From assembly GCF_005771675.1 (NCBI RefSeq), contig NZ_VAJM01000017.1:1-64000 (forward strand): DNA of 64,000 nucleotides, given 5' to 3'. A program made the position numbers and the translations under genes. The stretch comes from Hymenobacter jeollabukensis (lineage in GTDB: Bacteria > Bacteroidota > Bacteroidia > Cytophagales > Hymenobacteraceae). Below the pieces are notes generated by a model that saw only the letters and a program-made list of their open reading frames with translations, had not been told where the DNA came from and did not search any database. Below, piece by piece: positions 18,241 through 64,000 of the stretch (position 1 is its first letter; each line of letters opens with the position of its first letter).

Positions 18241-18666
18241 ATGAAAAAAACTCACTTACTGGCCCTCGTGGTCATTGCCATTGCCATCAGCATCGTCATG
18301 GCCACCGCCGGCGACGCGTCGGTGTACGTCTCGTTCAAGGAAGCCAAGGAGCTGGCCGCCGACGGCGACCTGCGCAAGGTGCACGTGGTGGGCCGCCTGC
18401 CCCACGACGCGCAGAAAAACATCGTCGGGATGCAGTACAACCCCACGCTGGACCCGAACTACTTCGCCTTCATGCTGGTGGACACCAACCACGTGCAGCA
18501 GCAGGTGGTGTACTACAACCCCAAGCCCCAGGACTTCGACAAGTCGGAGCAGGTGGTCATCACCGGCAACATGCGCAACGACATCTTCGTGGCCGACAAA
18601 ATCCTGCTGAAGTGCCCGTCGAAGTACGTGGAGAAGGAAGTGAAAGGCGCCACCGCTTCGCGGTAA
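18241..18666 (+). CDS. ccmE: Heme chaperone CcmE, CxxxY variant
   Basis: A 141-residue periplasmic OB-fold heme chaperone held by an N-terminal anchor (LLALVVIAIAISIVM). Family features are the VHVVGRLP strand, the FMLVDTN region and VVITGNMRNDIFVADKILLKCPSKY. In classic CcmE a His in HxxxY binds heme covalently. Here the residues are CPSKY, the Cys (CxxxY) form known from some archaeal and other Ccm systems. It lies between the ccmD-like gene and ccmF, and an AT-rich palindrome follows its stop. Confidence 0.85.
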   Translation: MKKTHLLALVVIAIAISIVMATAGDASVYVSFKEAKELAADGDLRKVHVVGRLPHDAQKNIVGMQYNPTLDPNYFAFMLVDTNHVQQQVVYYNPKPQDFDKSEQVVITGNMRNDIFVADKILLKCPSKYVEKEVKGATASR

Positions 18667-18670
18667 TGAA

Positions 18671-18783
18671 TAATTAATAATTAAGAATTAATAATTGGGG
18701 CTGATGCTCCAGTTGTAGCGCAAAACGGGCCATGACAGGCGCGGCAGCGGCAATTCTTAATTATTAATTCTTAATTATTAATT
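18671..18783. repeat. AT-only inverted repeat between ccmE and ccmF
   Basis: Two perfect 25-base arms (18672-18696 and 18759-18783) are built from AATTAATAATTAAG-like words with almost no G or C, in a locus that is otherwise GC-rich. The left arm starts 5 bases after the ccmE stop and the right arm ends 7 bases before the ccmF ATG. Confidence 0.9.
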
Positions 18784-61584: not shown

Positions 61585-62043
61585 CTATTTCCGCCGCTCG
61601 GCAAAGAAGCGCTGCATCAGGGCGGCGCATTCGGCGGCCAGCACGCCCTGCACCACCTGGCAGCGCGGGTGCAGCAGCTGGCCGTGGCGGGAGTAGCCCA
61701 CCTTGGGCTCGGGCGTGCCGTACACCACCCGCGGCACCTGGGCCCAGGCCGCGGCCCCGGCGCACATCACGCAGGGCTCCACCGTCACGTACAGGGTGCA
61801 GTCGTGCAGGTACTTGTTGCCGACGAAGTTGGCCGCCGCCGTCAGGGCCAGCATTTCGGCGTGGGCCGTCACGTCGCGCAGCTGCTCGGTCTGATTGTGT
61901 CCCCGCCCGATGATCTGGCCCGTGGCCGTGAAGGCCACCACCGCCCCGATGGGAATTTCGCCGGCCGCGTAGGCCCGCTCGGCCTCGCGCAGGGCCTGGC
62001 GCATGAGTTGTTCGTGGATGGCGGAAGGAGTAGAGCGCTGCAC
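61585..62043 (-). CDS. tadA: Nucleoside/tRNA adenosine deaminase (TadA-like)
   Basis: A 152-residue zinc deaminase. The catalytic motif is VTAHAEMLALTAAAN with the ligand pair VTVEPCVMCAGAAA. DEVPVGAV-type residues appear as GEIPIGAVVAF and the substrate-facing HNQTEQLRD is present, as in TadA, which converts A34 to inosine in tRNA-Arg. Guanine deaminase-like relatives are the alternative. Its promoter lies next to the 42-bp repeat array. Confidence 0.86.
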   Translation of the reverse strand: MQRSTPSAIHEQLMRQALREAERAYAAGEIPIGAVVAFTATGQIIGRGHNQTEQLRDVTAHAEMLALTAAANFVGNKYLHDCTLYVTVEPCVMCAGAAAWAQVPRVVYGTPEPKVGYSRHGQLLHPRCQVVQGVLAAECAALMQRFFAERRK

Positions 62044-62065: not shown

Positions 62066-62073
62066 CAAAGATA
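62066..62073 (-). promoter_or_regulatory. -7 promoter box of tadA
   Basis: On the minus strand this reads TATCTTTG, a perfect match 22 bases before the ATG. The repeat array begins 33 bases further upstream. Confidence 0.7.
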
Positions 62074-62105
62074 CGGCCGGGTGCCGCGACGGAGACATGA
62101 AAGCT

Positions 62106-62375
62106 ACTGCCAGCGGTTGAGAAAGTACCCAAAGACTTCAGCGGCTATTGCCACCGGTGGCAACGCTATCCAAAGGACTTCAGAGGCTGTTGCCACCGGT
62201 GGCGGTATCGTCCGAAGGGCTCCGGATGCCATTGCCACCGGTGGCAATGCTATCCAAAGGGCTCCGCAGCCTATTGCCACCGGTGGCAGTGCTATCCAAA
62301 GGGCTTCGCAGCCTATTGCCACTGGTTGGGAAATCATTCAAAGCCCATGGGGGGCCTTCCCAACGGGTGAGAAAA
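62106..62375. repeat. 42-bp tandem repeat array with GCCACCGGTGGC dyads
   Basis: About six and a half units begin at 62106, 62148, 62190, 62232, 62274, 62316 and 62357. Units 2 to 5 are exactly 42 bases apart and each opens with the dyad TTGCCACCGGTGGCAA or a near form. The outer units are degraded. A second conserved word, CTATCCAAAGGGCT, follows each dyad. It occupies the 412-base gap between tadA and the M1 peptidase, where no convincing gene is seen. Confidence 0.92.
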
Positions 62376-62400
62376 ACCGGTTACGGGCATCGGAGCATAC

Positions 62401-62434
62401 AAAAAGCCCCCACCGGCCAGGGTGAGGGCTTTTT
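62401..62434 (-). terminator. Intrinsic terminator of the M1 peptidase gene
   Basis: A 14-bp stem with 13 matched positions (AAAAAGCCC... with ...GGGCTTTTT) lies 21 bases beyond the stop, with a T tract on the minus-strand exit. Confidence 0.88.
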
Positions 62435-62455: not shown

Positions 62456-64000
62456 CTAGGCCTTTTTCTCCTCCGGAATCTTCACGTTGTCGTCCGGGTT
62501 GCGGTCGATGAGCTTGTTGAAGGGGTCGATGCCGACGCGCTCGGGCTTGGTGGGCACGGTCAGCTCGATGCGGTTGCGGCCGGGCTGCAGGCGGCGCTTC
62601 TGCACCAGCAACGGCACGTCGTGCCACTTGCCGGCCTTGTCCTTGCGGCGGCCCATCACGCCCACGTCGACGAAATCCTGGGTTTTGGCGGCCGTTTCGT
62701 TGCCCAGGGAGTCGGCGTAGAACTTTTTGGTATCCACGGTGAACTGCACCCGGTACTGGCCGTTGGGCAGCTTGCGGTAGGAGGCCGAGTCCACCTTGTT
62801 CTCGTAGAGCGTAATCTTCTCGAACATGTCCGTGACCAGGTACTGCAAGGAGTCGGGCGTGTGCTTGCGCAGGTAGCCGATGAATTCCACCGAGTTGGTG
62901 AACGGGGGGCGCTGGAAGGCCACCTTGTCGCGGTATTCCTGGATGGCGGCATTCACCGCGTCCTCGCCGATGTAGTCCTGCAGGGCATACATCACCAGGG
63001 AGCCTTTGCGGTAGTGGATGTAGGGCTGGTTTTCGACCAGGTACAGCGGCACTTCCTTTTTCTGCTCGAAGCCGCGGCCCTGCAGGTAGTCGTCGAGCTC
63101 GAAGCGCAGGAACTTCTTCATCTTGTCGGCGCCGTAGAGGTGCTTCATCACCATCAGGGCCCCGTACTGGCTCAGGGTTTCGGCCATCAGGGTCGAGCCC
63201 TGCACGTTGCCGCCGATGATCTGGTGGGCAAACCACTGGTGGGCCACCTCGTGGGCCGTCACGTAGAGCGGGTAGTCGATGTCCTTGGGGTCGGTCGAGT
63301 CCACGTCGGCCACGAAGCCGATGCTTTCGGAGAAGGGAATCGTGTTCGGGAATGACTGCGCGAACGAGCTATAGCCCGGAAACTCCAGGATGCGCACCTG
63401 CCGGTGCTGGTAGGGGCCGAAGTGCGTGGTGTAGTAGCTCAGCCCTTCCTTCACGCCCCGCACCATGCGCTGCAGGTTGTACTCGTGCCCCGGGTGGTAG
63501 TAGATTTCAATCGGCACGTTGTTCCACTTATCCTTATAGACCTGGTAGCGGGCCGAGAGGAAGGAGTAGAAGTTCAGGATGGGCGCGTCCATCTTGTAGT
63601 GGAAGTAGCGGCGCCCGTCCTGGGTCCATTCCTTCTGCAGGTAGCCCGGGGCCACGGCCACCTGGTCGGGCGAGGTACTCACCGTCGTCTCGAAACGAAT
63701 CCAGTCGGCGTCGTTGCTGATGTAGGTATTCATGCGCGCCAGCGAGTCAGTCACTGCGGCCATGCGCGGCTTGGGCTTCAGGCCCTGCTCCTTGCGGGTG
63801 TCGTCGTCGCCCAGCTCCCAATCGGACTGGTAGCCGATGTGGGGCAGCATTTGGGAGTTGACGAAGGTGCCGTTGTAGACGATGCTGGTGTTGGAGCCGC
63901 GGTTCTGGAAACCGGGGTTGGTGTAGGCCAAATCGAAGTTCAGCTGCACAGAGTCGCCGGGCTGCAGGGGCTGCGCGAGGCGCAGGATGCGGTAGTCGGC
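62456..64000 (-). CDS. M1-family aminopeptidase, C-terminal part (runs off the window)
   Basis: At least 515 residues are visible; the N-terminus lies beyond 64000. The zinc site is TAHEVAHQWFAHQIIGG with the downstream Glu in STLMAETLSQYGAL, so the catalytic residues are intact. QLNFDLAYTNPGFQNRG is an M1 N-domain-like segment. After the catalytic domain come HYRKGSLVMYALQDYIGED and a beta-rich end with KVDSASYRKLPNGQYRVQF. Bacteroidota relatives are often fused to an N-terminal ABC-2-type membrane region, which cannot be checked here. Confidence 0.9.
   Translation of the reverse strand, partial: ADYRILRLAQPLQPGDSVQLNFDLAYTNPGFQNRGSNTSIVYNGTFVNSQMLPHIGYQSDWELGDDDTRKEQGLKPKPRMAAVTDSLARMNTYISNDADWIRFETTVSTSPDQVAVAPGYLQKEWTQDGRRYFHYKMDAPILNFYSFLSARYQVYKDKWNNVPIEIYYHPGHEYNLQRMVRGVKEGLSYYTTHFGPYQHRQVRILEFPGYSSFAQSFPNTIPFSESIGFVADVDSTDPKDIDYPLYVTAHEVAHQWFAHQIIGGNVQGSTLMAETLSQYGALMVMKHLYGADKMKKFLRFELDDYLQGRGFEQKKEVPLYLVENQPYIHYRKGSLVMYALQDYIGEDAVNAAIQEYRDKVAFQRPPFTNSVEFIGYLRKHTPDSLQYLVTDMFEKITLYENKVDSASYRKLPNGQYRVQFTVDTKKFYADSLGNETAAKTQDFVDVGVMGRRKDKAGKWHDVPLLVQKRRLQPGRNRIELTVPTKPERVGIDPFNKLIDRNPDDNVKIPEEKKA

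Follow-up and report, generated by a model that had tools for sequence, protein, structure and literature searches.

A 42-bp phased palindrome array beside tadA in Hymenobacter jeollabukensis and its probable membership of a protein-linked array class

Between the start of a tadA-like deaminase gene and the terminator-like hairpin behind the 3' end of an M1-peptidase-like gene, both on the minus strand, the Hymenobacter jeollabukensis contig NZ_VAJM01000017.1 carries a row of short palindromes at a strictly regular pitch. The contig segment analysed here (positions 1 to 64,000 of the forward strand; the window) raises the question of what such an array is for and whether it belongs to the gene that it precedes. 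A preliminary description of the sequence had suggested a multi-site operator for a cooperative regulator or a variable tandem repeat acting as a spacer.

Geometry of the array and its relation to tadA

Four perfect copies of GCCACCGGTGGC (0 mismatches; Table 1) follow one another at steps of exactly 42 bp across 62150-62287, as had been described. TRF reports one repeat at 62129-62326 (period 42, 4.7 copies, 80% matches, 0 indels), and the self-identity of 62100-62380 reaches 0.64 at a lag of 42 and 0.58 at a lag of 84, where lags 10-99 average 0.26 (sd 0.08). Four in-phase palindromes in a row (at least 6 of 8 pairs) occur once in the whole window, and period 42 is the only one among periods 20-63 to give them. 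A weaker second dyad (e.g., TCCGAAGGGCTCCGGA) lies midway between the main dyads, so that dyads alternate every 21 bp. The outer units had been called degraded, which holds on the right: a half-decayed dyad there retains 4 of 8 pairs, as does a further, sixth position centred on 62365. On the left, the presumed unit (ACTGCCAGCGGTTGAG, centred on 62113) is not a dyad, pairing at chance level (2 of 8), and the array proper thus begins near 62135. The distance of about 33 bases given for the tadA -7 box is right solely to this false left unit. The box itself (TATCTTTG, minus strand) lies at 62066-62073, on the tadA side of the array, and fits the Bacteroidota -7 consensus. Elsewhere in the window, AT-rich repeats of 7 and 14 bp (TAATTAA, AATTATT) occupy 18664-18783.

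Table 1. Parts of the array and its flanking features (window coordinates)
Feature	Position	Strand	Remark or basis
Phased palindrome array, gene-less class member	62135..62345	.	Period 42 bp, dyads every 21 bp
Main (A) dyad 1	62150..62161	.	GCCACCGGTGGC
Main (A) dyad 2	62192..62203	.	GCCACCGGTGGC
Main (A) dyad 3	62234..62245	.	GCCACCGGTGGC; imperfect symmetry across whole unit, 16/21 pairs
Main (A) dyad 4	62276..62287	.	GCCACCGGTGGC
Decayed A dyad 5 (right outer unit)	62318..62329	.	GCCACTGGTTGG
Secondary (B) dyad 1	62169..62184	.	TCCAAAGGACTTCAGA
Secondary (B) dyad 2	62211..62226	.	TCCGAAGGGCTCCGGA
Secondary (B) dyad 3	62253..62268	.	TCCAAAGGGCTCCGCA; TATCC[AG]AAGG motif common to C12, C23 and C22 arrays of the same genome
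Terminator-like hairpin between M1-peptidase-like gene and array	62400..62434	-	AAAAAGCCCCCACC...GGTGAGGGCTTTTT; read from sequence
M1-peptidase-like gene, 3' part; array behind its stop codon and terminator	62456..64000	-	ORF, named from sequence features
tadA-like deaminase gene, opposite side of array	61585..62043	-	ORF and genus-wide orthologues

An operator at the tadA promoter, bound by a cooperative repressor or activator as had been proposed, would be in keeping with the -7-like box on the tadA side and with the phased dyads, which are typical of cooperative operators. The gene was found in all seven other genomes of the genus (protein 85-96% identical), but its spacer contains the array in none of them (0/7), so the site is not conserved with the gene. 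Moreover, many genes unrelated to one another, among them those for Lon, WG-repeat, GNAT-like and amino-acid permease proteins, have arrays of the same class near their 3' ends, and the M1-peptidase 3' end adjoins the window array too. The operator reading is therefore one to which we give almost no credence.

The dyad is also confined to its array. A search of the whole 6.2-Mb genome for TGCCACCGGTGGCA with at most one mismatch, which the preliminary description had called for, recovered the four array sites and none outside them, and a global regulator with a genome-scattered dyad was rejected on the same ground. The reversed control pattern has 16 sites, and the lack of TGCCACCGGTGGCA (one mismatch) outside the array may reflect avoidance. 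Other palindromic elements occupy the tadA spacer in related genomes: a lone GCCACCGGTGGC dyad in G006 (L060/L080), possibly a relic or seed of an array, a long inverted repeat (TAGCGCGGACTTTGTAGTCCGCG...CGCGGACTACAAAGTCCGCGCTA) in G004 (L063) and further hairpins in G001 and G006, such that different palindromic elements gather there in different species.

The array class and an adjoining orphan protein family

The architecture recurs across the Hymenobacteraceae, where palindromes of ~14 bp every 42 bp, with a weaker one midway, remain constant while their sequences differ, each array holding 4-10 perfect or near-perfect palindromes. The H. jeollabukensis genome has two further arrays whose period is again exactly 42 bp but whose arms differ (CTTCACCGGTGAAG), and a core-relaxed search returned arrays with CACGCGTG, CACACGTG and CACATGTG cores. 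With spacing left free (28-58 bp) in 150 genomes of the family, 42 bp was found nearly throughout and 43 bp in one genome; one apparently coding repeat was among the results. A sequence-blind scan, which takes in-phase palindromes only, covered 464 kb of the same genome and 400 kb of another; it yielded further arrays with unrelated dyads (TTCCAACGCATTGGAA; CCCGGCAGAGCTCTGCCGGG), ranked the window array near the top of the list for its own genome and had no prominent period other than 42. Numbers of arrays per genome are estimates from these 864 kb of stretches. At the strictest setting (10 bp half-sites, 18 of 20 pairs) the window array alone was recovered from its genome, at periods 42 and 84, and nothing from shuffled sequence (0); looser settings give scattered chance matches at other periods in real and shuffled sequence alike. 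The window array and the class alike comprise at least four in-phase palindromes at 41-43 bp with an array-specific sequence.

A coding repeat, 42 bp being 14 codons, was considered and rejected: arrays linked to the protein family described below follow stop codons, some arrays have a period of 43 or 41 bp, and the reading frames of several arrays, judged by eye, contain stops. A candidate that looks like a coding glycine-rich repeat (G143:C1:869177) was discarded, and pattern matches in G093:C4 and G170:C33, which resemble other repeats, were left out of the counts. Two denser repeats were noted separately. The L097 locus (G093 C4, 104745-104983) has 21-bp repeats of CACCCGTGCCCACGTGCTGCC, which may encode protein or be related to the arrays. 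The other (L112:14796-15050; H. jeollabukensis C22, ~74.8 kb) consists of TTCCAACGC[A/T]TTGGAA palindromes every 21 bp between CusA-like and CusB-like genes, and begins directly after a stop codon with no gene of the protein family nearby in the stretch read.

When genes were called in the surroundings of the arrays, the same protein of ~235 aa turned up beside nine of them, with the array behind its stop codon. It belongs to an orphan family of probably helical proteins (~230 aa) whose C-terminal tail is basic, with medians of +4 for net charge and 9.2 for pI; the family is present in 41 of 204 Hymenobacteraceae genomes in up to 9 copies; named carriers include Hymenobacter nitidus, H. metallicola, H. 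lucidus, H. guriensis and H. persicinus. Homologues were gathered by protein similarity alone to 27% identity and beyond that by profile. A phylum-wide profile search of 395 sampled Bacteroidota genomes gave, outside the Hymenobacteraceae, one weak partial match without an array. Comparison with Pfam, NCBIfam, PHROGs and PDB sequences returned nothing significant (chance matches alone in PDB), the PADLOC defence models gave no match, and no known DNA-binding domain was found in the libraries searched. An AlphaFold model built from five usable sequences is all-helical at low confidence (pLDDT 58), and a fold search with this model gave no match. The basic tail would fit nucleic-acid binding.

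Protein and array are closely linked. In 46 of the 50 family members analysed, the stop codon is followed by an array, with a pitch of 42 bp in 40 of them, 43 bp in five and 41 bp in one; the median gap from stop to first dyad is ~25 bp, and a single member exceeds 119 bp. Two further members, the H. jeollabukensis C2 gene and the L130 gene, have the array upstream. At a strict score of at least 23, arrays were detected in 42/50 family flanks compared with 3/1880 control windows, in stretches themselves known to contain arrays. Genes chosen by protein similarity alone and added later (L184-L198) have arrays there too. When spacing is measured free of any period, 54 of 104 steps between successive strong palindromes behind the genes are 42 bp, the remainder being mostly 84, 63, 21 or 43 bp, and the upstream flanks contain about one tenth as many strong palindromes. 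A gene's own dyad was not found upstream clearly above the dyads of other genes, so promoter autoregulation is not indicated.

Which spacing an array has (42, 43 or 41 bp) goes with the place of its protein in the family tree: among 50 members, a single 100/100 clade contains the five measured 43-bp arrays and a separate clade the 41-bp ones, such that variable unit length, which had been named as evidence against phasing, is absent save for two departures that each mark one protein clade. Two divergent family members (L181 and L193) have 41-bp arrays, and L181 has inverted neighbouring half-units. Dyad sequences change far more freely: the five paralogues of G016 have five different dyads, and at one orthologous locus, with flanking genes conserved in up to ten genomes, the dyads are TTCCGGAGCTCCGGAA, TTGCAACCGGTTGCAA and TGGTACGCGCGTACCA with 42 bp and symmetry unchanged. 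Sequence turnover at constant spacing is what selection on the architecture together with a co-evolving specificity would give. A variable tandem repeat acting as a spacer, another of the earlier suggestions, leaves unexplained how both the palindromes and the 42-bp pitch persist at orthologous loci whose sequence has turned over completely.

Gene-less arrays and a proposed two-part system

Of the gene-less arrays examined, which stand near the 3' ends of the unrelated genes listed above, none lies in a divergent intergenic (promoter) region. The orthologous GNAT-like 3' end carries an array in 4 of the 9 genomes that have the family gene, with a solo dyad in a fifth, and in 0 of the 21 that lack it; these genomes are related, so the counts are not independent. 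In three genomes (G175, G139 and G189) the dyad at this site is that of the genome's own gene-linked array. Gene-less CACNNGTG arrays occur in 12 genomes, 11 of which have the family gene, compared with 41/204 overall. As exceptions, G149 has a gene-less array but no family gene, and the dyads differ from those of the genome's own gene-linked arrays in the lon arrays of G109 and G097 and in some gene-less arrays of G016 and G099. At one locus (L068:1250-1400; G093 C6), an intact array directly follows what is left of a family gene, 41 C-terminal residues, the gene having been lost and the array kept.

The H. jeollabukensis genome has four family genes (C22:497420, C22:443360, C22:431999 and C2:1347). 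The first is broken, with GTG where ATG is usual and an early TAG, and two dyads are left behind it, CCTGCACCGGTGCAGG and a decayed one; the dyads of C22:443360 and C22:431999 are CCCCGCCTAGGCGGGG and TCATGAGTACTCGTGA, respectively, and C2:1347 is the gene with its array upstream. The window contains no family ORF, so its array is filed as a gene-less member of the class, tied to it by the CACCGGTG core and the TATCC[AG]AAGG half-way motif. Because the window array has both in common with the C12 and C23 arrays and with that of the broken C22 gene, it is most likely a site of the subfamily of C22:497420. With that gene now broken, it may no longer be served and is perhaps an orphaned site.

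We consider, with moderate confidence, that the window array belongs, as a gene-less copy, to an undescribed Hymenobacteraceae protein-plus-array system, in which the protein would bind double-stranded palindromes as a putative dimer and form a cooperative rod. On balance we also lean towards a categorically new kind of two-part system, composed of an orphan putative DNA-binding protein and arrays, self-linked and in trans, that combine a spacing rule with palindrome specificity, with fast co-evolution and a frozen geometry. As far as searched, the array class and its link to the orphan family are undescribed in the libraries and open-access papers covered, and no open-access paper was found linking Hymenobacter with such arrays. 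The linkage, the clade-specific pitch and the co-variation of protein and dyad suggest that the family protein probably binds its own palindromes as DNA. With sites four helical turns apart (two to the half-way dyad), dimers would be placed on one face of the DNA and could contact one another, giving a cooperative nucleoprotein rod whose pitch the protein would set. Protein and palindromes would co-evolve, which would account for sequence turnover within a constant architecture. Gene-less arrays would then be extra sites for the protein acting in trans at gene ends, as boundaries or anchors and not as promoters, and the window array would be one such trans site, for the subfamily of the broken gene.

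Cooperative binding of a dimer to each palindrome appears the most economical reading of these sequence patterns, and its main rival is a selfish role like that of REP/RAYT elements, in which the protein, as a nuclease or recombinase not yet characterised, would move or amplify the palindromes and the gene-less arrays (the window's included) would be non-autonomous copies. Such a role would suit the patchy distribution and copy number of the family, the broken or truncated genes (C22:497420 and the remnant beside the G093 array), the restriction of gene-less arrays largely to genomes with the gene and the presence of the window array in one of eight genus genomes, in this species alone. Yet the protein matches no family of transposases or nucleases, vertical inheritance with neighbours conserved on both sides is seen at several gene loci, the arrays within a genome do not repeat a single sequence (the window dyad having no other copy), and the two queries tried found no plasmid or phage homologues; we regard the selfish element as unlikely, though as the alternative deserving most attention. 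A passive by-product of tandem duplication and templated quasi-palindrome repair, devoid of function, would be in keeping with the homogeneity within arrays, which resembles tandem amplification, and palindrome correction is a known mutational process. It leaves unexplained, however, the link to one protein family and the recurrence of the same 42-bp period in unrelated sequences with clade-specific 43 and 41 bp, and the sequence-blind survey had no other prominent period, so that we judge it very improbable.

The arrays could instead act as RNA, as a transcribed row of 3' untranslated hairpins recognised by the family protein or an RNase, given that they stand directly behind stop codons, that a terminator-like hairpin is near both arrays checked for one (the window array and L009) and that every unit could form a hairpin. 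A hairpin would tolerate G.U but not A.C on the sense strand, whereas both are about equally frequent. With the sense strand set by the gene whose 3' end the array abuts, G.T and A.C mismatches numbered 264:307 in the first array set; in the gene-linked arrays they were 119:90 in the main dyads (p=0.05, a marginal G.T excess), 130:121 in the half-way dyads and 274:294 outside, with no consistent RNA-strand signal overall. Bases 2-6 from the centre are paired in 86-96% of cases in the gene-linked arrays; pairing declines towards background at 9-13 and recovers at the half-way dyad. An RNA tetraloop would leave the second pair from the centre open, yet 88-93% of units preserve it. The RNA reading also gives no reason for the exact 42-bp spacing, and Rfam returned 0 matches on ten loci, ribozymes and CRISPR included. 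We therefore think an RNA role improbable. The earlier proposal of helically phased dyads at the level of DNA is borne out by spacing and symmetry kept in dozens of sequence-unrelated arrays and by the lack of a consistent G.U preference.

Significance and comparison with known systems

A feature that is blind to sequence and consists of palindromy and helical pitch can be inherited as a genetic part linked to a single orphan protein family, and such a part escapes sequence search and annotation. The approximately 50 natural pairs of protein and array, with their differing dyads, constitute a data set on how DNA-binding specificity changes, and the arrays at gene ends offer a test of an organising or insulating role in the bacterial chromosome.

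Among known systems, CRISPR arrays likewise have short palindromic repeats at a fixed pitch beside a protein gene, but the intervening DNA here is itself repeated and partly palindromic instead of consisting of unrelated spacers, with no CRISPR match in Rfam and no Cas-type protein match in Pfam, NCBIfam or PADLOC. REP/BIME elements and their RAYT genes resemble the present class in dispersed intergenic palindromes near gene ends, in patchy copies and in a protein gene adjoining the repeats, an adjacency found here for the 46 of 50 genes with a 3' array. The spacing of REP partners varies from 1 to 100 bp (PMC3733652), whereas spacing here is fixed at 42, 43 or 41 bp. The Y1/HUH transposase (PF01797) that stands beside REP repeats has no counterpart, the family protein having no Pfam and no significant NCBIfam or PHROGs match, and no GTAG or CGTC tag was noted in the arrays. 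In place of many dispersed, near-identical palindromes, dyads differ between paralogues and between arrays, with no single high-copy family. Multi-site cooperative operators have phased dyads and DNA-level symmetry in common with the arrays, which differ in standing at gene 3' ends, none of those examined being in a divergent promoter region, and in having different sequences at the sites of one genome.

In ParR/parC, TubR/tubC and plasmid iterons, a small gene lies beside helically phased sites for its own product, which assembles on them into a cooperative nucleoprotein array. No homology to these centromere-like and iteron systems was found, and here the array is usually 3' of the gene, several arrays occur per chromosome, some of them gene-less, and the palindromic units lie at four helical turns; common to both is a small gene adjoining helically phased, here putative, binding sites.
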